This document shows, one piece after another, positions 45,691-58,808 of a stretch of DNA of 64,000 nucleotides. This DNA is from Sialis fuliginosa. Lineage: Eukaryota > Arthropoda > Insecta > Megaloptera > Sialidae. The position numbers and the translations under genes are program-made. The notes under the pieces are model-generated. The model was not told the DNA's origin, ran no database searches, and saw only the letters and a program-made list of their open reading frames with translations. Within the stretch, counting starts at the first letter, position 1. Each line of letters opens with the position of its first letter. The DNA lies in contig OY540809.1 in assembly GCA_961205875.1 (NCBI GenBank), positions 15,388,267 to 15,452,266 of the forward strand. The letters are read 5' to 3'.

Positions 45691-47048
45691 TCATCGGAGG
45701 TATATAATCGTTTTGTTTCAATATTATGTACATTCACTTAAAAATTGCGTGTAATATAAAAAACTGAACTCATGTATACTACACCGTGATCTAACTCGCA
45801 TACTCCGTGAAAAGCAATGCATTTACTAAATATTACTATATTTACAAGTAGGTATACTCGACATCACTACGTCCACATGTGTTCCGAGTTATATCACGGC
45901 CAGTCTGTTTTTTTACACAAAGCGCGTGTGGAAGACAAAACCGAAAACGCAAATATATTTGGTATACTGCAGTATATAGGCATTCATGTGATTTTAAAAT
46001 ATATATAATATATATACTTCATCAAAAACTATATATAATATTTATTAATTACTCAATAATATTTGGAAAATATATAATTGTAAAAGTATACATTGATTGA
46101 TTGTTTTAAAGTTTCGATTTGCGTTCTCGGTTTCGTAACTTGAATCATGTCTTCTAAGCGGTATATACATAGGTATTCTTTCGACTCTAAAATGAACCTC
46201 TATTTGTATATCTTCGATGTGAATTTTTCTTTTTTTTCGCATACGTTTATACCCTACTTTGTTTTGAGATCATTCTATTTGAACTTCTCTGGTTCTATTA
46301 ATATGTTGTTTATTTTTTTTGAAAAATTCACAAGAAAGATACTTACCTCCCAGTTACATAATTATTTACCTAATAATTATAAACATTCTTATTTAAATAC
46401 ATATCATACAAATTTTTATATAATAATATTAATAATTATAATTTGACTATTAAAAACATCAAGATCACCAAAATCGTATACCTACAGAGGATTCTGGAGG
46501 GGGGATTTGTTAAGGAGGGGGTTGCGACTCGACTTATTTTAATAGTGGTTCATTTAAAAGTCGCCATGTTTCTTTTGGTGTCCATTTTAGTTATTTATTC
46601 ATTTAAAAAGAAACGGGATATAAAGAATGGACAACATCACATATTTTTAAAATATAGATATGGTATTTAAATTTTTTATATTGTCGATCGTGTTTTTATT
46701 TTTCGAAAAAACAGCCTCAAAGTGACATTATTTTTATTTTTTACACAGACAACCTTTTTTGTATACATTTGTATTTTATTTTAGATTAAAATCACTATTA
46801 GCCAAAAATTATTTATTTTAAAAACAATTCTTTCAAAAATGATATATATTCATAATATTATTACGTATATCGACCATGATTGTAAAAAGGGTTTAAAATT
46901 TCAAGGACCTGACAAGGATTTTAAAGCGCATTTAAAAAAAATGATTCCAAAAAAAATAAAAATAAAATCGATATAAAATAATAATATTATTTTTCATTTA
47001 TCACGACCACATGGGAACCAAACGACGAAAATATATTTATAAAATACA

Positions 47049-47082
47049 GGATGATCCGAAAAAAAAAGATTTTCGGATCATC
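47049..47082. repeat. hairpin, 15-base arms
   Basis: AGGATGATCCGAAAA is followed within a few A/G bases by TTTTCGGATCATCCT. Probably a collapsed MITE. Confidence 0.8.
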
Positions 47083-48900
47083 CTATACAAAATGAATAAA
47101 AACAAACAGCCCAAAATATTAACTTAAAAAATGTTTCTTACAAAAACTTATTTTTCTTTTTGATATGTTTTTTAGAAGCACCTTATATTTTTTATGATAC
47201 AATTTTGACGTATAATAAAAAAATATATGGTGCTTTTTAAAAAAACCTCGCAAATAATTTTTGTCCGACATATTTTTTCATAAAGTAAATATTTTCAGCT
47301 GTAGTAGAATCAATGTCCCTTATTTTTTTATTTATTCACACATACTGAATTTCAATAATAATCTAAAAAATACTCTTTTCTCTATTAATAATTATAAAAA
47401 TATTTACGTTCTAAACATATTTGCACCGAAAACTCAGCACCTACTTATAAATAATTGCAGACTATTGGCTGGTTTAGAACGTGAATATATGCATTTAAAA
47501 ATAAAATAAAAACAACAAAAAATCTAAGAACAATGCGCACAGGGGATATGGGAAAATATCAGGGACCAAGGGACATGGGTGAAACATCAAAATCTATTCT
47601 AAAAAATGTGTATTCACGAGACATTCAACTTCCCTTATATTAGGAACATTCGCTCATACAAAAACCTATAACTGAAATGTACAGTGTACTCAAAAATCAT
47701 CAAATTATACACGCGAAATTATTTTGTGCTCAAATTGACTTGAAATTTATAGGTAAAAAATTAAGGGATTAAAATATAAATAGGTCAATATGCAAAACTT
47801 TATAACTATGATAAAAATACTCGTATTTGAATAAACAAAAACAATTTCTGAAGATTGAAATGTCTATTTTTCTGTACTTCTATCAGATTTAATTTTTAAT
47901 AAGTTTTGAAAAAGTTATGGGGTTGTAAAGCAAACAATAAAAAATGTATTTTTTGTGTTATTTTTTATGAGTGTGTATGGGGTTAAAAAATTTTTTAGGC
48001 AAAATCTGTTGATGCCATTCAAAAACTCATATTTTCAGCTTCAAAAAATTGTTATTTTTTGCGTAGTATCAAATATTTTCGTGGGGAAAAATCCGTTTTT
48101 GATATTAAGCAAAAAAATATCAGTTTTTTACTTATTGTTAGTGTAATATATCTCCGTAAAAAAATAGAGATCAATTTAAAAAAAAGCATTTGACTTTAAC
48201 TAAAAAATTAACAATTGTATATTTTTGCTAGTTTTATAATCCAATATATCCGAAATGTATAAATAAAACTCTAAAAATATTTTGAATCCTAAATTTTTTA
48301 TCAAAAAATCTTGAGAAAAGTATTTTTTTAAATTGGTATAAAAAGTATTAAATTGTTTTATCGAATTTTTAAATTCAGATTTATATGTTCTTCTATAATA
48401 TGGCACCATTTAAGTTATTATAGATTAAATATTTGGGACTACCTATAGATCCAATCAATATGAACACTACCCAATTTTGTTTCATATAAAATCTCTAATA
48501 CAAAAAAAATATATATATAGGTGATTCAGAATACGCTGTACAAATCATGAGGTAAAAATTAAACCACCCAAACATATTTTTACACATTATATATAGTCAT
48601 TATATTAGTATACCTCTGTTGAAACTATTAATAATCGTATTGGCCGAACACACTCGGTTTTTTTTAAATAAATTTTTAGTTTCATCCACCATATTCGGCA
48701 GCATGTTTATGGTTTCATCCTCACTGATCTTCTTCTTCATCTTCTTCTTGTTGTATATGTACAAACCACATTTGTCTTTTTGTACAAATATGTCCATTAT
48801 TATTAATATTAATATTTTTACTCCGCACTTTCACTACATATACATTTTGTACAAGGATTTAAATCACATTTAAAAAACTTTTTATCTAGCCCGATATTTT

Positions 48901-48930
48901 TTTATTATTATTAATTATTTATTTATTTAC
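48901..48930 (-). promoter_or_regulatory. hth: candidate poly(A) signals for hth
   Basis: On the minus strand, AATAAA hexamers occur at 48901-48906, 48918-48923 and 48922-48927, just past the in-frame TAA at 48958. In DNA this AT-rich such hexamers are frequent by chance, so their position is the only support. The real cleavage site could be much farther left. Confidence 0.3.
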
Positions 48931-48957
48931 TTAATTAATTAATTAATTATAACTTAT

Positions 48958-49140
48958 TTAAGTTGCACCATGCAGTTCTAGTAGTATTCTCTTTCTCACT
49001 CGTTGTGTAGTTTGTTGTTGAAGGTGGTAGAGGTGGAGGTGAGGCGATAACGGCGATGGAGGTGGCGGCATGGACCACACAGACGCGTCCTCGCTACTTG
49101 ACGATGGCGTTAACTTCGAGCGGCTATCACCCTCTCGTTC
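48958..49140 (-). other. hth: last hth exon: 3'UTR, or C-terminal extension if the UAG is read through
   Basis: A polypyrimidine-poor but clean acceptor (TTATGTGTGTAG|G) opens this GC-rich stretch, which stands out from the AT-rich flanks. In the frame delivered by the upstream 191-base exon it has 60 sense codons and then TAA. The product would begin EREGDSRSKLTPSSSSEDAS, continue VWSMPPPPSPLSPHLHLYHL and QQQTTQRVRKRILLELHGAT. It is rich in Ser, Pro, His and Gln, as many transcription-factor tails are. The other two frames hit stops within 30 bases. If the 191-base exon were skipped, the protein would instead end SNRAG-TRG-stop. I infer a spliced 3' exon with fair confidence; translation is speculative. 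The exon probably runs on past the TAA to a poly(A) site. Confidence 0.6.
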
Positions 49141-49578
49141 CTACACACATAAAACAAACAAAATTAATAAATTAAAAACCATCTGGTCAACAACCTTAAA
49201 AAACAACCACTGGTAAACGACCTTAATAATCTTATAACATTAATGTTATTATACTTATAAAAATCTAGATTCTATAGCCTCAAAGCAATATTTTTTTATT
49301 TATTTTAAGCTCTCACTTGATAGAAAAAAATCATAAAAAGGTTTTCTTGTTTACATTTTCAACCCTTCAGTATAAAATAGCTTGTTCATTTTTTATTTTA
49401 TGTTTTTTTTTCTGAAAATTTATTAAAATTTAGAGCGAAAAACAAACACAACATCTAAAATCCAAGATCCTTCTGCGATTTTTGCATCCTCTCTATACCC
49501 AAAGAATAAGGTAAGCTTTTAAAATTTAGAATTACTATTTTCTAATGAAATTGTATACAAATAAAATGGTCATTTTAA

Positions 49579-49961
49579 TGTAAAGCAGATGCTATGATAA
49601 TATTAATTAATAAACAGATTACACTAATAATTAGTTTAAATTTCCACTATTTTCACACCCAATGGCCGATTGTCTTCAAATTAAGCTGTTTTATAGTTAA
49701 GTGTCTATAGATTATGATTCGGTAATGGCAGTAATCAAATATCAACAAATATTTGAGAAGGTGAGTTCCAAAACTTGTTCGTTCCATTTTAAAAAATAAT
49801 GGAGATGCGGTATATTTTAAAAAAATGTCATTAATTCTTTCAAAATCCACTGCATCTCGATTATTTTTTAAAACAGAACGAACTCACCTCCTCATTTCTA
49901 ATGTAGTACATTTAATTATACAAACTGGGGTTTTATGTATGATCCAAGACTGGTGCCAGTA
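49579..49961 (-). mobile_element. CTGGCACCAG-family element in the hth 3' intron
   Basis: The interior 'taaagcagatgctatgataa' and 'ccgattgtcttcaaattaag' and the end GACTGGTGCCAGTA match other copies. The left end is missing. A 143-base palindromic element interrupts it at 49750-49892. Confidence 0.75.
49750..49892. mobile_element. small palindromic MITE nested in a CTGGCACCAG copy
   Basis: GAGAAGGTGAGTTC at the left and, reversed, GAGGAGGTGAGTTCGTTCTG at the right; ATTT lies directly outside each end. Removing the insert restores 'aaatatttctaat', the sequence seen in uninterrupted copies at 35800 and 59132. Boundaries are good to a few bases. Confidence 0.7.
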
Positions 49962-49994
49962 CCTTTTTGATGAATAAAATAAACAACAAATTAC

Positions 49995-50039
49995 CTGATT
50001 GATAACGTGTGTAGGCGAAGACCCCGTAGCAGTCTCACA
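49995..50039 (-). other. hth: hth exon portion after the UAG stop (3'UTR or readthrough codons)
   Basis: The hth exon continues 45 bases past the stop and ends at a strong donor (CAATCAG|GTAATT). Read in the hth frame these bases are 15 sense codons, CETATGSSPTHVINQ. The distance from stop to junction (45 bases) is under the ~50-55-base limit usually associated with nonsense-mediated decay, so a spliced 3'UTR would be tolerated. Whether these bases are only untranslated or are also read through is open. Confidence 0.7.
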
Positions 50040-50185
50040 CTACAGATGGTGTCCGTAATACTCGGCCGAGTAATGCGCCGCATACTGATTGTGAAACGCC
50101 GGGTCTCCTGGCGGCCGATGCATCATCTGCTGACCGTCCATCATATAGCCCATTGAGCCGTCCGGCGAGTACGCGCCACTTGGAC
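50040..50185 (-). CDS. hth: homothorax, C-terminal coding exon with UAG stop
   Basis: This is the coding part of the exon that follows the helix-3 exon. An acceptor (CCCCGCACGCAG) precedes it, and its first two bases complete the Gly codon split at the upstream exon (G|GT), so the join is in phase. It encodes 47 residues after that Gly: PSGAYSPDGSMGYMMDGQ, then QMMHRPPGDPAFHNQY, then AAHYSAEYYGHHL and a UAG stop. The blocks GYMMDGQQMMHRPPGD and AEYYGHHL are the conserved C-terminal tail of insect Homothorax, which lies after the homeodomain. The exon is clearly GC-richer than the AT-rich DNA around it. Note that no codon before the stop begins with GT, so no alternative donor in this exon could leave phase 0. 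The exon continues as 3' sequence to 49995. Confidence 0.96.
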
Positions 50186-50429
50186 CTGCGTGCGGGGAGA
50201 ACACTGCACATTAGCGCAATAAGATACTGTCCGCATACACTAACATTTGTAGCGGCCGTTCCGTCACACAATGCCGTGCAGACATCTCGACAAGGCGTTC
50301 GTTACAGCCTTGTCGACATGCCTGCATTGCAATGTGTGACGAAACGTTGGTCGAATTTGACCTACATCCAGAAACCAAGAATAGTTTTAATATCGTTTCA
50401 AAAACTTTACAAATAATAAAATGATTGTA

Positions 50430-50535
50430 CGCAGCTAAACCTTCCGTTCTATTAGTGAAAACCGGACTAAAATCCGTTCATTAGTTACTGATAAAATCGT
50501 GCATAGACAGACGCAGCTGGGGATTTTGTATTTTT
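50430..50535 (+). repeat. interspersed repeat family B fragment
   Basis: 'ctattagtgaaaaccggact', 'aaaatccgttcattagttac', then 'gcatagacagacgc', all within hth intron DNA. Confidence 0.65.
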
Positions 50536-50607
50536 ATACTATGCATAGAGGTATGTTATCAAAATTAAAATGTAATATTTATAAGAAGTTTGAGCTAAGA
50601 TTTAAAC

Positions 50608-50976
50608 CCTGTACTTCAATTTTAAAGGCATCGCAAAGGGGGGTTCCGTTTTCTTGAATGCTAAAGTTGGTATTACTGATTCATGATAACTGTTGAAAAA
50701 TTTTAAGGACATCTTTTTGTAGAAGATAAAATTATCTACAAAAGTGTTAACATTTTAACGTCAATAATCTATAAATTACAATTAAATACCAATATATAAA
50801 CCTACTACTGAGCTACCGGAAAAAGAATGACCCAGCCGACAAATGACGTCCTTAATTTTTTTATCCATTGTCATGAATCAGTAATACCAACTGTAGTATT
50901 AAAGAATACTTTTTAATGTTATTTAAACGGGAAACGGGACCCCTCTTTGCGGCATCTCTTAAAATTGAACTACAGG
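50608..50976. mobile_element. palindromic MITE in hth intron
   Basis: The left arm 'cctgtacttcaattttaaag' then 'tcgcaaaggggggttccgtt' and 'ggtattactgattcatgat' is matched in reverse by the right arm to 50976. About 369 bases, loop in the AT-rich middle. No coding sequence. Confidence 0.75.
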
Positions 50977-51339
50977 CTAATTCTTCGGCAAGGATTTATT
51001 TTAGGTCATAAACTAACTTATTTCGTAATGAGAACGAAGAAAAAATATATACTGCTTTTTTTGACACACCATACTATAGTTTTTAGTTATTAATCTTATT
51101 CTACGTGAAAAAACACGAATCTTTCATAGAAAATTTTTTTTTGAATACCCTAAGCTTTCCAAGATATCTAACAAAATAATTTGAGATTTTGAACTTTCAA
51201 GAATTTTTTACTCAGAAATATAATATAATATAATATAATATATACCACACAACTGTTCTGTGTTTTTTTAACCCACCCATTCAATTAATTTATCTCCCAT
51301 AACAGTAACAATACTTTTAACCGCAGAGAAATAAATCCG

Positions 51340-51540
51340 GAGACACATAGAAGAGGCAATGTCTGCATCAACGGCGAAATAAAGATTTTCATGCAGTGTT
51401 CACTTTCGCGCTCCGATGGCTACCGGAGCCGTTAGGTCCGCCAGCGATGATCCGGAAAGCTCTTTGGTGGTTTAAGGGGAAATACCGGAATCCGGAAATG
51501 TGTTCCGGGACCCTTCAACAATACACACACTGTACCTAAG
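51340..51540. promoter_or_regulatory. GC-rich non-repeat patch in hth intron
   Basis: 'ctccgatggctaccggagcc' (a CTCCG...CGGAG hairpin), 'gtccgccagcgatgatccgg' and a run of CCGGAA words. Candidate intronic enhancer on composition and position alone. Confidence 0.3.
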
Positions 51541-51843
51541 ACTCAGTCTACTGCTTGCCGTTGTTGTTCTGCTTGCTCTAATTGATGCAGCTATGTTTAA
51601 TTTATTGTTATTGCTATCCGTTCTGTTTATGCTATTTATTTTACCGCAATTGATAGAAAACCCATTGACAAATGATGTCTGTACTCTGTTGTTATCCAAG
51701 ATTTATAATGCCTTTTGAAAATTTTATGTGTAATAACGATAATCTTTATTGTAGATAAAAATAATGGACTACTATCACTTTTTGTTTGTAATAAAATTTA
51801 ACTTTTAAAATGATTGGAAGTAAATGTAATATCGTGGGTTATA

Positions 51844-52036
51844 GAGACACTCCAGTAAGAGTTATGATAGCATCGCCATTTTTAGCCAAACCAGCAATGA
51901 TGCGATTAAAATTGAACATAATGTAATAATATGAAGTATATTTAATGATATATATATTATATATATATATTTAATAATATCAGCAAATACGGCTGTGAGA
52001 GACTTGGCTACTATAATCAATCAGAAATCGATTCGC
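51844..52036 (+). mobile_element. GAGATACTC-family MITE, right end missing
   Basis: TA then GAGACACTCCAGTAAGAGTT. The interior is shared with 28740-28820 ('cttggctactataatcaatc', 'agaaatcgattcgct'), then an abrupt junction with a family-B scrap. Confidence 0.7.
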
Positions 52037-52202
52037 TAATGGTGAAAACCGTATTAAAATCGGTTCAGTAGTTTTCAAGATTAACTATAACATGTAAAAA
52101 GAACTTTCATTTATAGAGATAGATATAATTTAGGCACTTAATATTGAATTTTATCATAATATTGAACCCAGGGTCAAATTTATAAGTTAAGAATTATCCA
52201 TA

Positions 52203-52370
52203 TAATAATACTAATATTATAAATGCAAAAGTGCGTCTGTCTGTCGGTTTGTCTGCTACCTTTTCGCAGCTAAACCGCTGAACCGATCTTGATAAAATTT
52301 AACAGGGAGATAGCTTGCATCCTGAAGAAGGACATAGGCTACTTTGTATCTCAAAAATTTATTAATTAAA
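52203..52370 (-). repeat. interspersed repeat family A
   Basis: 'actaatattataaatgcaaa', a GTCTGTCTGTC run, 'ctaaaccgctgaaccgatct', 'aggacataggctactttgta'. One of the best-preserved copies. Confidence 0.8.
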
Positions 52371-52679
52371 AAAATGGGTGTGTGACATTTGAAGGTTATA
52401 TTTTATGGTATAGATATCTAGCGTACAAATACGAAACTAAAAACCTGTTTTATATTCCACGCAAACGAAGTTGCGGAAAACAAATAGTAAAATATATTTT
52501 TATATGATTGATGAGCCAATATCAAAATTATTAAAAATGTCAGTAGTCAGAACGGCAGATTAAAGGGAGTGGCTAAATTTTAGCGAAAATGAAAACAATA
52601 ATTTGAAATTATATGAAAGAAAAAATTGGAAAATTTAATTCACGTTATCTAAGTTCGACTATGTAGCCATTCACGTGTA

Positions 52680-52900
52680 TTTTGGTGAGTGTGGTGCAAG
52701 GGAACAACTAAAACGGCGCGATAAGGGGCGAGTGGGGCAAGGGGGTGGAGGGGGGGGTCTATGAAAGGGAACAGTTGATGGATCGGTCCTTGGAGGTCGC
52801 CGCCTTGAGCCATTTATCGCGAGAGCTGTCGGGAACACGAAAAAATCTACAGGAATAGCTACCGCGCGCTTCCAGACCTTTCAACACTGCTGTTGCACTT
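52680..52900. promoter_or_regulatory. GC-rich non-repeat patch in hth intron
   Basis: 'aaaacggcgcgataaggggc', a G-rich tract (52736-52758), then 'cttggaggtcgccgccttga' and 'tatcgcgagagctgtcggga'. Candidate intronic regulatory element. Confidence 0.3.
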
Positions 52901-53321
52901 ATCTAATACAGAAAACCGAAGAAAAAAACTTATCACTGGTATCGAAACTCATACATAATTCAAACTTGATTCTTAATGCTGAATATGCAGTATTTGCCAA
53001 ATCTAGATAGCTCGGATTAGTTTGACTATTTTGGCGCTATTGTATGTTTTGATTTACGTTTCAAATTGTGTCTATTGTGCCCTCGTTGCGATTGTTTATT
53101 TGCATTTATATTATACCATGTTTTCTTCTGATTCAAAAGATTACATTAATCCAATTATTTATAACGAATTTGTAAGTTGGATTAATATTTATTTTACATT
53201 TTCTACACTCGTATATAATATCAAAAAATCTGTATAATCGATAAAATGTAAAATTAAATTTGCAAAGTAGAAACCAAAATATTTTGTTCAAATACAAAAA
53301 ATTAACAAAAATCTATACATA

Positions 53322-53520
53322 GCATAAAATAGTACCACGCCGCGTCTGTCTGTCTGTCTTTGTACGATTTTCTCTATAACTACTGAACGGATTTTATTCC
53401 GTTTTTCATTAACGGATAGAGTGTTAGTAAATATTTAACGATATGTGAAAATAATCTTTAATAGGTTTATTACAGATAAAATTTATATTCCCCGGTAAAA
53501 CCGGGCCCAATGCGCTAGTA
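53322..53520 (-). repeat. interspersed repeat family B, reversed copy
   Basis: A CTGTCTGTCTGTC run, 'actactgaacggattttatt', then 'ggtaaaaccgggcccaatgc' and CGCTAGTAA. Reverse orientation relative to the left-hand copies. Confidence 0.7.
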
Positions 53521-53849
53521 AGTTATAAATTACAGGAAATATACTGAAATTTATCGAATTCAATTCACTGATATATCTGACAAATTATGGATTGTTTTTA
53601 TTTTTTTGAGAACAGTTTTTATAACCATAAAAAAACTTGTTTGCAGGGAAATAGCGACCATAAAGTAGATTATTATGCATCCATAAACTTCCCTAATCTA
53701 AGAGGAAAATAAATATTATATAAAATCGGAATCAACAACCACTCTAAAATATCGAAAAAAATGATCCATTTCCAATTACCTACTGTACATGCACATTATC
53801 GCAATGAATAAGTAACTGTATAGTAAATGAACAGTAGACAGTATAAAAC

Positions 53850-54110
53850 TAGACGGCGCAATGTCACACTGTGTCGCAGACTTCCATTCCGCCGAAAATA
53901 AGGGTTTGGGCGTAAAGGGGGTAGATTGCGGGCGCATGCCGGTCCATCCATCACTCCTGTCAATGCACGTAATGGCGACTGGGTCTGGAACACGCGTCCC
54001 GCCAACCGCCTCATTCAAACGCACCACCGCCGACGGAAAATACACGCGCTCTTGCGTTATTTACGCGACACCGCAAACGTTTTAACTCGGGTGTTATAGC
54101 GTACAACCAG
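53850..54110. promoter_or_regulatory. strong GC-rich non-repeat island in hth intron
   Basis: About 260 bases with 'gattgcgggcgcatgccggt', 'cgcgtcccgccaaccgcctc' and CTGTCAATG at 53957-53965 (a TTGACAG Homothorax-type site on the other strand) followed by CACGTAAT. Open frames exist in several frames but lack splice sites or homology. I favour an enhancer over a coding exon. Confidence 0.35.
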
Positions 54111-54827
54111 CATCCCTAATACTTGATTAGTTCGGGTAGGTATTGACGGAATTTACGTAAGTTAGTAATTTTTTTACGTCGCTTTGCACACGTTTTGATG
54201 GTGGTGGTTTTTTTTCGTAGAATAGCCGAAAAAATAGAGTGCTCGAAATTAAGAAAAAGGGATTTGCAATGGAGAATATTATGATGTATATCTTGCAGCT
54301 TAATGGTGTAGGGTCGAGCGTGTTATATTGAAGATCTCTTTCTAAGTCTTTGATAACATCTGAATTTGCGATATTTTTTATCTGAGAATTTGTTTCAATC
54401 GCAGAAAAACATTTTGCCAAAAAGAAGATATAGCTTTTTTTTCTCAGAGAGAGAATTTCTAATATCTTTCACAAATATTATTTGTGACATCTCTACTATA
54501 CTTCTATTTTTTTTCTATCTAATCTCTGACTTCTTTGAGACAAAATACTTCGAACTAAAACTTATGTCTGGTATTTTAAATAAATAACTCAATTTTTTAG
54601 GACTTTGAAACCAGGTATCAAATTTATATGACAGTTACATAACGTTTATTAACAGTTTAGTGCATGTGCAGTAAGTACGATATTAAAACAGAGGTTTAAT
54701 ATATCTTATTTGGTCAAAATCGCCAATTGTGTTTTAGTAAATTGAAATACCACTGTTTTAAATTTAAAAAAAATGTCTTAGGTTAGGTCCTATCAAATTA
54801 TGGTCGTTAAAGAAAAGAATCTATTTA

Positions 54828-54859
54828 AAAAGTTTTACTGTATATACAGTAAAACTTTT
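54828..54859. repeat. perfect 32-base palindrome
   Basis: AAAAGTTTTACTGTAT is followed immediately by its reverse complement, with no loop. Confidence 0.9.
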
Positions 54860-55365
54860 ATAAAGTGACTCTTCAAGCCAAGAAGAAACTATTAGACATA
54901 GATAAATATTGACTAAAATATAAATTAAAGAAATTCAAATTATTAGATAGTCGAATCATGCCCCATTAAATATTTTAATTATCTGTTATCAATGTTTCAT
55001 TATTGGAACACATTAATAATGCATCTTAACTAATGCAGCAGTGGTAATGAGACAGATGGAAGAGAAACGAGATGGAGTAAGTAAAATGACGCGACGTGAG
55101 ATAATGCTAATGTAAATTCAATAAAAACCACTCGAAAAAATTAAAAAAACAACGGTTATCTCAAATTGGGCTAATTGCTGATGTCTGAAACGCCAAGGAA
55201 AAAATAATTATAAATGGCGAGAAGTATTGACGTATAAGTTTTTAAATATTCAATGTTTTAGCCGTTTTAATGGAACAGGGGTGATAAAAAATTTATAAAA
55301 TAGAATATTTATTAATGGATTTTGTTATTTTTCCTATTTTTCCAAAACTTTTACTATGAAAAATT

Positions 55366-55686
55366 AATGTCCGGTATTATAAATAATTTGCTTGAGTGCA
55401 AAAACAAATTAGCTTCCAGTTAATGCTATCTGCTAATCCAGGCACTGAATATAAATGACAACACACTCACAGATGTAGTGAATGAAATCGTACATATGAT
55501 AACCTTGACGCATGCGTGATAAGTACATTCAGTGACTTAAAATAAGTGCTGCCAAGTGTAGTTCATAAATACATAACATTTACGTTATTATATATTTATT
55601 ACTACTGCTTTCGAGTGATTTTATAAAATTTTGACACCTAGCAGATAGCGTTAGACTCAAGCAAATTCTATATAATACCGGGCATA
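55366..55686. mobile_element. palindromic MITE in hth intron
   Basis: Left ATGTCCGGTATTATAAATAA then TTTGCTTGAG; right CTCAAGCAAATTC then ATAATACCGGGCAT. An inner pair 'atgctatctgctaa' / 'agcagatagcgtta' extends the fold. Confidence 0.75.
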
Positions 55687-56849
55687 ACACACGCAGACAT
55701 CATGAATTTAGGGATGGACAAAATGGATACTACTAGCTGTGAAAAGGTAACAGACAGAGAGAAGTACACACAAATTAATATCTCCTATGATCGACTCGAC
55801 AATCTTTTCAGAAGAAAAAACGACTAGCATTTTTTTAATTAATAGATAAATAGCAAAATGCATAAAAAATGTTTTACAGTTTGATCTGCAAATAAACACG
55901 GGTGAAGTCACATATACAAAATAAAATAAAATAAAATTTTTCTTGTCATATTAATAATAAACACAAATTACCCCTAATTACCAGAAATATTTACCTTGAA
56001 ATTGAAAATGTATTTATTCTTCATGCATGCATTATAATTATCAACATCAACAATGCATAATGTGTCTACAATGTCTCCCCCCCCCATTCCCCTAACAAAA
56101 AAAAACAACAACAGTTACATTGTGCGGCATCAAGAAGGCGATGCACGGCTTGCCTCAAAAGCGTACACACAGTTAATACAATATATAAAAATAACGAATG
56201 GGAGATATTTCTAAGTGAGGCTTGACGGAGGAAAAAAAGAACAACACAGTCTCAAAGGAATAAAAAGAGATGATGATGAAAAATCATTTGTTGTTATGTT
56301 TATATACTTGTTACATGGACTTTTTAAACAGTGTATTTTTTAATTTTCAGTTGTAGACAATCTTACTGTCTTCAATTTGATATATGGGCCGTTTAAAATA
56401 AAAAATGACTTACAACATTTTTTTTAATTACTTGGTTAAATATTTTTCAAAAAGCAAAAAGAAGTATCTACTAGAATTCTAGGCTTCAAGTAGCTCATAT
56501 AATTAAACTTTTTTATTTGAATGAAATATCCATTTTGTCTTTACCTGAATCTATTTTCATTGTGTCGGTATAGTGTTTATTCACAGTATTACGTATAAGA
56601 AAGTCTAGTTATTTTTTAATTTGTATTTTTTTTTTACTTTTAGAATTGATTTGTATGTTCGATTTTAAAAGAACTAGCTAATACCCACGATTTCGTTCGC
56701 GTTATGTATATAATAAGATGTATATGGTTCGCGTAGAATTTAGGTTAAGTAGGAGCTGTCACCCATAAAGAAGAATAAAAATACATATTTTTGTTATGAT
56801 AGTCACGCGTACAATTGTTACACTTTCATTTTTTTATCTAATAAATTTT

Positions 56850-56975
56850 TCGGGATATGCCATTCCTAAGGATGCAAGCTATCTCCTTGCCAAAATTCAT
56901 CAAGATCGGTTCAGCAGTTTAACCGTAAAAAGGTAACAAGACAGACACATTTTTGCATTTATAATATTAGTATAT
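56850..56975 (+). repeat. interspersed repeat family A
   Basis: 'gatgcaagctatctccttgc', 'gatcggttcagcagtttaac', 'gacagacacatttttgcatt', 'tataatattagtat'. Confidence 0.8.
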
Positions 56976-57772
56976 TTCTACAGGGTGTCAAATCGTGAGT
57001 AAAATTAAAATATTATTTTTCCGATAATTATTGCATATTCAAATTAAATTTTATTATTTAATAATTCCCAGTAACGTAAAATATTTTTTTCTAAAAAAAT
57101 TTTATTTCCGACAATATCTTAGGATTTTTTGGCTCTTGTACGATTATAACATATCAACTATGGTGCCTAATATAAACTTAGAGTGCAAAGTTGTGTACTA
57201 TAGTTACTTATCTCAACACTCAATTGTGATCAAGAAAGCCTTGTGTATTGTGCCGTAGATGACAAGTATCCATAATTAAAATTTATTTTTGTCTCTATTC
57301 ATTTTCGTGTTTTTATGCGATACAACAAAAAATCACTGTAAAAAACCTGTCAAAGAAATGCAACGTATCATGATCATTAATTATATCATTATTTAAATTT
57401 GCAACAGTTAATTCTGACCATTCTTGGTTTCTGTATATAGATCACGTCTATTTTCGATTAGTTTAAATATACTATAGCTATAATATTTGTATTTGAATAA
57501 ATTTAGGTAAAATATTTTCTTTTAAAATTATTGTTCCTTTTATTGAATTTTTTTTCTTTGATACAAAAACATAAAAAAATATAAAAAATTAATATTACAA
57601 AAATTAGTAGAAAGTATTACAATGTGTATTAAAATAAATTTAACCCATTTCTTAAAAAGCTTTTTGTATGTGTTCATAAATTTCGGTATAGTAACCGAGA
57701 ATTTTTATTTAAACTATTGTTTGTGTTGTACGTCATGAAAGGGTTAATACTGTGGATAATAATCAAAATTAC

Positions 57773-57831
57773 CTGCTCGATTTGATTGATCAATCATAGG
57801 TTGTACGATTCTACGCCTTGCATTGATAAAC
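57773..57831 (-). CDS. hth: homothorax, internal exon encoding homeodomain helix 3
   Basis: This 59-base exon encodes the end of a TALE-class homeodomain. The reverse complement reads (W)FINARRRIVQPMIDQSNRA(G), which is the third, DNA-reading helix and the stretch after it in the Meis/Homothorax family. The invariant WFIN asparagine and the RRR block are present. The first Trp codon is split (TG|G), so the exon starts in phase 2 right after a CAG acceptor; it ends in phase 1 (GCA G|) before a GTAATT donor. Homothorax is a nuclear cofactor that binds Extradenticle and Hox proteins, brings Extradenticle into the nucleus and patterns proximal limb and other fields. That role is family knowledge. 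The preceding homeodomain exon is not in the window, so the upstream intron runs past the right edge. It is too short to appear as a long ORF. Identity is near certain; Meis-type paralogues are not expected in insects. Confidence 0.97.
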
Positions 57832-57961
57832 CTGGAACAAAGAAAGAATCATTAGTTACTGCAACATTAAACATATTTTATATAATAATAGATTTATTTT
57901 ATTTAAATATGTATGTAGTACATATTATAAATTAAAATTCATTATTTTATATGAACAATAA

Positions 57962-58172
57962 GAGTCGATCCAGACTATCGTGCTGGTTCCGGTCCAGTCT
58001 CGCTCCGGTCTCGTTCCAATCAAATATAAATATACAACAAACAATGAAATCATTCACACTATAGGTATCGCTCAGGTCTCGGTCCAATCACGCTCCGATA
58101 CAGTATTTCTATACTAAATATTTGTTTGGAACGAGAACGGACCGAGACCGGCACGATAGTCTGGATCGACCC
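57962..58172. mobile_element. PIF/Harbinger-like MITE with TAA duplication, hth intron copy
   Basis: A 211-base copy of 31297-31496 in inverted orientation, between TAA at 57959-57961 and 58173-58175. It lies only 130 bases from the helix-3 exon acceptor. Confidence 0.85.
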
Positions 58173-58808
58173 TAAATGTTACAATTTTATAAATATATCA
58201 CTGAAGCAACATTATATGATTTTATATACTGTTCATTTTTAACACAAAAAGTTTTCCCTCATGTTAAATATCTTTTTAAGGAAATATTTTCTTATAGAAG
58301 TTGTAGTGACCATTATTATATATAGAAAATGAAATCCTCTACAAAAAATATTCTACACAATTTTATGTATATACCAACGTTTCATTCAAAAATACATATA
58401 TTTCTCACGGATTTGAACTAAATATAAACTTTATATAAAATTCACGATTTTCGGTCAGCAAGATGCTAGATTATAACATATTTTATGCACACGTTGTAAT
58501 TTTGTGTGCATATTTACAAGGTAGCTTGCATGATGGGCAGTATACAATACCTATACATACATTATTAACACTTTCCCGGCTGGTAACACTCGATAAAACA
58601 TAAAGTACGTGACTTTATTGTTTACATCACATAAAACCATAAATACATAATAATATTACTCAATATTAAAAACATGTAGGAATAATGTACCGAAACCTTT
58701 TTTTCTTCATAATGTACTAAAAACATTGATTTGATGGAAACAGTAGAAAAACACCTTTCTAAAATAAACTAAGTTAAAATCTGTCAATCTGTCCGACGTC
58801 TAATAAGG

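Follow-up and report, generated by a model that had tools for sequence, protein, structure and literature searches.

Gene structure at the 3' end of homothorax

The window, a stretch of 64,000 nucleotides of Sialis fuliginosa contig OY540809.1, carries on its minus strand the 3' end of homothorax (hth), the gene of a Hox cofactor (Hth/Meis) that is conserved across animals. Exons 11 (locus L013) and 12 (locus L015) of hth are located upstream on the same contig. Exon 13 (57773..57831, minus strand; 59 bp, FINARRRIVQPMIDQSNRA) completes the homeodomain and passes on one base. Exon 12 was read by us as 77 bp. The lengths of both exons are those of Table 1 of PMC7392893, where exons 12 and 13 measure 77 and 59 bp in seven of seven insects.

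Exon 14 (49995..50185, minus strand; 191 bp) follows an acceptor of 12.2 bits. It receives one codon base from exon 13, completes this split codon, and continues with 47 codons, a UAG stop codon (50040..50042, minus strand; context CUG UAG UGU) and 15 more codons, leaving no base at its end (phase 0). The C-terminus of Hth (...EYYGHHL) is encoded directly in front of the UAG.

Several further elements were recorded. An inverted repeat (50257-50346; 40 bp, 85% complementary, 10 nt spacing) is located 72 bases upstream of exon 14. In the intron between exons 13 and 14, a GC-rich stretch (52671-52880) contains 69 open, proline-rich minus-strand codons and an acceptor-like site at 52825, and has no Pfam match. 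The genome also holds a second Meis/PKNOX-type gene (loci L010, L011 and L014; G000:C12, 13.953-13.957 Mb) with matches to PF16493 and the homeodomain, which we take to be probably a Prep/PKNOX relative.

Open frame beyond the stop codon

Downstream of the UAG, the hth frame stays open for 75 codons, 15 of them in exon 14 and 60 in a putative exon 15 (48961..49140, minus strand; phase 0), and closes at a TAA (48958..48960, minus strand). The first-pass annotation had described this arrangement, and every coordinate that it gave was correct to the base. It had also stated that the two remaining frames of exon 15 close early, and stops were found after 9 and 3 codons, respectively.

Splice sites were scored with hand-entered, approximate matrices, and the scores serve only for the ranking of sites. 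The donors of exon 14 (AATCAG/GTAATT, 9.2 bits) and exon 13 have equal scores; of the 483 GT sites between 57900 and 48700, 4 reach the score of the exon 14 donor or more, itself counted. The acceptor at 49140 (TGTGTAG/GAAC, 7.8 bits) is the best site from the exon 14 donor to 48700; its score is reached or exceeded by 14 of 413 AG sites in 57900-48700, again with the site itself counted. Judged from these sites, a predicted post-stop intron (49141..49994, minus strand) that would join exon 14 to exon 15 is plausible. The intron contains a repeat element (49577-49883), of which the part from 49754 to 49577 recurs in 39 or more other copies across the genome with an identity of about 90% and is adjoined by 50-bp inverted arms (49777-49826 and 49834-49883).

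An alternative donor inside exon 14 was rejected as the source of the phase. As had been noted before, there is no phase-0 GT ahead of the stop, and none of the five phase-0 GC dinucleotides in this part has a GCAAGT-like context. Three AATAAA words (48901..48927, minus strand; starts at 48927, 48923 and 48906) were found in very AT-rich surroundings beyond the TAA and are possibly due to chance, given the composition of this sequence.

Chance expectation

The open frame could belong to a real extended protein or be a lucky open stretch of untranslated sequence, and chance holds the biggest single share. The earlier estimate of a few percent for a random frame of this length was reproduced with independent bases (4.6%) and with dinucleotide shuffles. 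Shuffling was performed 20,000 times for each part; exon 15 was open in 6.6% and the 15 post-stop codons in 52.6% of the shuffles, giving a product of about 3.5%. Such a coincidence would be made easier by the high GC content, since stop codons are rarer at high GC.

The frame was also compared with other positions. In the window, 157 sites that resemble acceptors were collected from both strands (471 site-frames). Apart from exon 15, 9 of the 470 combinations of acceptor and frame were open for at least 60 codons, or 10 of 471 with exon 15, some of them overlapping; such runs are thus not rare at these sites. Downstream of ten of the sites, the next 180 bp have a GC content of at least 0.50. 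In the same genome, a second in-frame run of at least 75 codons was found after 2 of 26 kinase reading-frame ends, which may be intron entries instead of true stops; in one of the two positives (locus L021) a stop is located inside the domain match. By itself, the open frame is weak evidence for an extension.

Composition and coding signature

Along the 3' end of hth, the GC content is 0.59 upstream of the UAG and 0.51 downstream of it, drops to 0.26 in the intron, reaches 0.53 again in exon 15 and is 0.03 in the 60 bases past the TAA. This bears out the description of the extension as GC-rich, unlike its intronic flank. The best-fitting GC block (49148-48965) ends no more than 8 bases from either end of the open frame. 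Among 183-bp stretches of the window, just 1.7% are equally GC-rich (14 blocks, including exons 14 and 15), and 225 nt with a GC content of 0.52 were found behind just one of the 26 kinase reading-frame ends. The composition and the edge at the TAA count for coding. A part of this edge is expected in any case, because an in-frame stop comes immediately in the AT-rich sequence past the block.

A similar edge was seen at exon 6 of hth (locus L012, G000:C1 at about 15710420, minus strand), where the frame runs on beyond the donor GTC/GTGAGT for 86 open codons with a GC content of 0.63. This tail closes at a TAG, where the GC content drops from 0.63 to about 0.18, and resembles the 6' isoform of Drosophila, which lacks the homeodomain.

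For the scoring of codon usage, 27 kinase reading frames from the same genome (30 loci retrieved) served as the training set of a codon model. Exon 15 obtained p 0.23 against open Markov shuffles. Values below 0.2 were reached by 106 of 131 held-out kinase segments and by 7 of 52 open window segments (GC at least 0.40), the latter possibly including real exons, those of hth among them. In the bin of exon 15 (0.2-0.3), the counts were 18 of 131 and 9 of 52, so that a score of this value hardly separates coding from non-coding sequence and is uninformative. In a previous form of this test, exon 15 had p 0.31, the whole extension p 0.20 and the coding portion of exon 14 p 0.025. The tail of exon 6, which is presumed to be coding, likewise failed the codon score (p 0.50).

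Exon 15 showed no significant three-base periodicity (p 0.25-0.35), while five coding pieces of hth reached p 0.016-0.074; the power of this test is limited, with p of at least 0.2 in 28 of 81 kinase segments. G or C occupies the third position in 28 of 60 codons of exon 15; for seven pieces of hth the count is 213 of 341 (p 0.02). This contrast is weak, since exons 12 (10 of 25) and 13 (4 of 19) are lower still.

Database and genome searches

Scans of viral contigs and prokaryote genome contigs yielded no confirmed relative. Apart from the extension itself, a protein search of the own genome returned only a single match (E 0.98, locus L050), which was taken as chance because it adjoins a low-complexity stretch. 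The DNA search of the genome, in which 40 of 3346 candidates were scored, was swamped by the intron repeat and does not by itself show that the extension is single copy. No known Pfam domain was detected in the extension tail at E 1. None of nine translated open stretches of the window, including GC-rich blocks from the intron between exons 13 and 14, matched Pfam at E 0.01, and an Rfam search over 46000-58500 gave zero matches at gathering scores.

Possible readthrough and recoding of the UAG

If some ribosomes decoded the UAG and crossed the exon junction, Hth would be lengthened by 76 residues, with the one inserted at the stop counted. The added tail would probably be disordered and rich in serine, proline, histidine and glutamine, the composition reported in the first-pass annotation; these four account for 30 of the 75 encoded residues. 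Readthrough of this kind is somewhat unlikely in our judgement. It would be consistent with a frame that is open in exactly the right phase over the predicted junction and with the sharp compositional edge at the TAA. Jungreis et al. (2016) found abundant readthrough in most of the insects that they tested, with Tribolium and Apis as exceptions (PMC5100048). In Drosophila, readthrough is predicted for 75 of 703 transcription factors (about 10%), and it occurs at the UAG of dfr (PMC8417969).

The surroundings of the stop argue in the opposite direction. The stop context is UAG-U and not the leaky one (UGA with C next), which is common among candidates without being obligatory; in the fly and mosquito candidate groups given in PMC5100048, 61-76% have TGA and 49-63% have C as the next base. 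A stem-loop after the stop, a trait of a minority of candidates, was not detected either: four windows at or after the UAG folded no better than shuffles (z +0.19, +0.09, -0.23 and -0.62). The coding signature of the second ORF, taken from codon score, periodicity and third-position GC, is weak, with the GC edge at the TAA speaking in its favour. The readthrough-aiding 8-mer CAGCAGCA is absent from the joined exons 13-15, which cover 202 nt ahead of the stop. Neither hth nor homothorax is named in the main text of PMC5100048 or PMC8417969, and no report of hth readthrough was found in the literature searched; hth may still figure in supplementary candidate lists. Of the readthrough traits that were tested, the 75 open codons after the first stop are the only one found here.

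The same frame would continue if A-to-I editing at 50041 converted the UAG into UGG (Trp). The triplet U-A-G is favourable for ADAR, and base 50041 was predicted to pair with 50057 at a probability of 0.54. The predicted stem is short and local, however, and none of 13 inverted repeats of at least 14 bp within 48700-50700 covers position 50041, so that no duplex over the edited base was found in this region. Recoding is considered very improbable.

Exon 15 as a possible alternative last exon

Exon 15 could also be a coding alternative last exon that is joined to a phase-0 donor other than that of exon 14, e.g. that of exon 11 or, in an isoform that lacks the homeodomain, that of exon 6. It would then be plain 3'UTR in the exon 14 isoform, and its phase match with the UAG would be a one-in-three accident. 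A phase-0 donor that can be joined to 49140 is present upstream at exon 11 (ACG/GTAAGT); because exon 11 ends in phase 0, alternative splicing could translate exon 15 in the frame of the extension as well. By our reading, exons in loci L009 and L012 also close in phase 0, and the phases of these exons and of exon 11 agree with published exon lengths. Exon 15 itself offers a usable acceptor and a coding-like GC content. According to Jungreis et al., an exon break in the second ORF may point to an alternative splice variant (PMC5100048).

Such a transcript would nevertheless have to skip exons 12-14 or more, across introns of about 100 kb and upwards, and splicing of exon 11 to exon 15 would split the homeodomain in two. 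Nearer exons with a phase-0 donor were sought between 57900 and 48700; of the 11 candidates obtained, none was convincing. We consider a coding alternative last exon quite unlikely.

Two other skipping events were rejected. With exon 14 alone skipped, the resulting frame of exon 15 stops after 3 full codons, and with exons 13 and 14 skipped it stops after 9 full codons.

Interpretation

The preferred reading is that translation of hth ends at the UAG (50042-50040) and that the frame of the extension is an open stretch without function. Its probability was put at about 0.55, a figure that is a judgement and was not computed. Ribosomes would terminate at this UAG. Exon 15 would be a short GC-rich exon of the 3'UTR, reached via an intron that starts 45 nt past the stop, or would never be joined to exon 14. 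The coordinates, phases, composition and chance rates were established directly; transcription and splicing of exon 15 are putative, and its lack of translation is inferred. The 75 open codons would be a coincidence at the level of a few percent, eased by the high GC content, and the TAA would arrive directly because the sequence beyond the block is very AT-rich. The first-pass annotation had offered readthrough, A-to-I recoding or chance. Chance has kept the largest share of these, and phase-0 donors elsewhere in the gene have been added, which had not been considered.

A more specific proposal is that hth of this lineage also gives rise to a second homeodomain protein with a longer C-terminus, produced by UAG readthrough over a junction 45 nt downstream, with an S/P/H/Q-rich tail and with neither a leaky context nor a stem-loop. 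This is doubtful, and we regard it as unlikely. If true, a second translated C-terminus would be a new way of tuning Hth/Meis, and the locus would be a hard case for insect readthrough, which would take place over a splice junction and without the usual context or structure. If due to chance, it shows the ease with which a GC-rich stretch gives 75 open codons after a stop.

Comparison with known systems

Vertebrate Meis genes have alternative C-termini, with a last exon that is either 3'UTR or coding, depending on the isoform. There, a cassette exon bears the stop codon and is skipped. Skipping of exon 14 in hth differs from this in that the wrong frame results, with a stop after 3 further full codons.

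Drosophila hth is the same gene, in which exon 12 measures 77 bp and exon 13 measures 59 bp (PMC7392893). Exon 14 is the last exon in the isoforms listed there, and the main text mentions neither an exon 15 nor readthrough, the word 'readthrough' occurring 0 times (PMC7392893).

The nearest readthrough case for comparison is Drosophila dfr/vvl, as described in PMC8417969. This intronless gene has UAG-C and a predicted stem-loop, whereas hth has UAG-U, no stem-loop and an exon break. The extension of dfr/vvl comprises 286 residues, is conserved in Diptera and has peptide evidence (PMC8417969), whereas that of hth is predicted from the sequence. The two genes are alike in that each encodes a developmental transcription factor of the homeodomain type and carries a UAG stop codon followed by an in-frame extension of low complexity.
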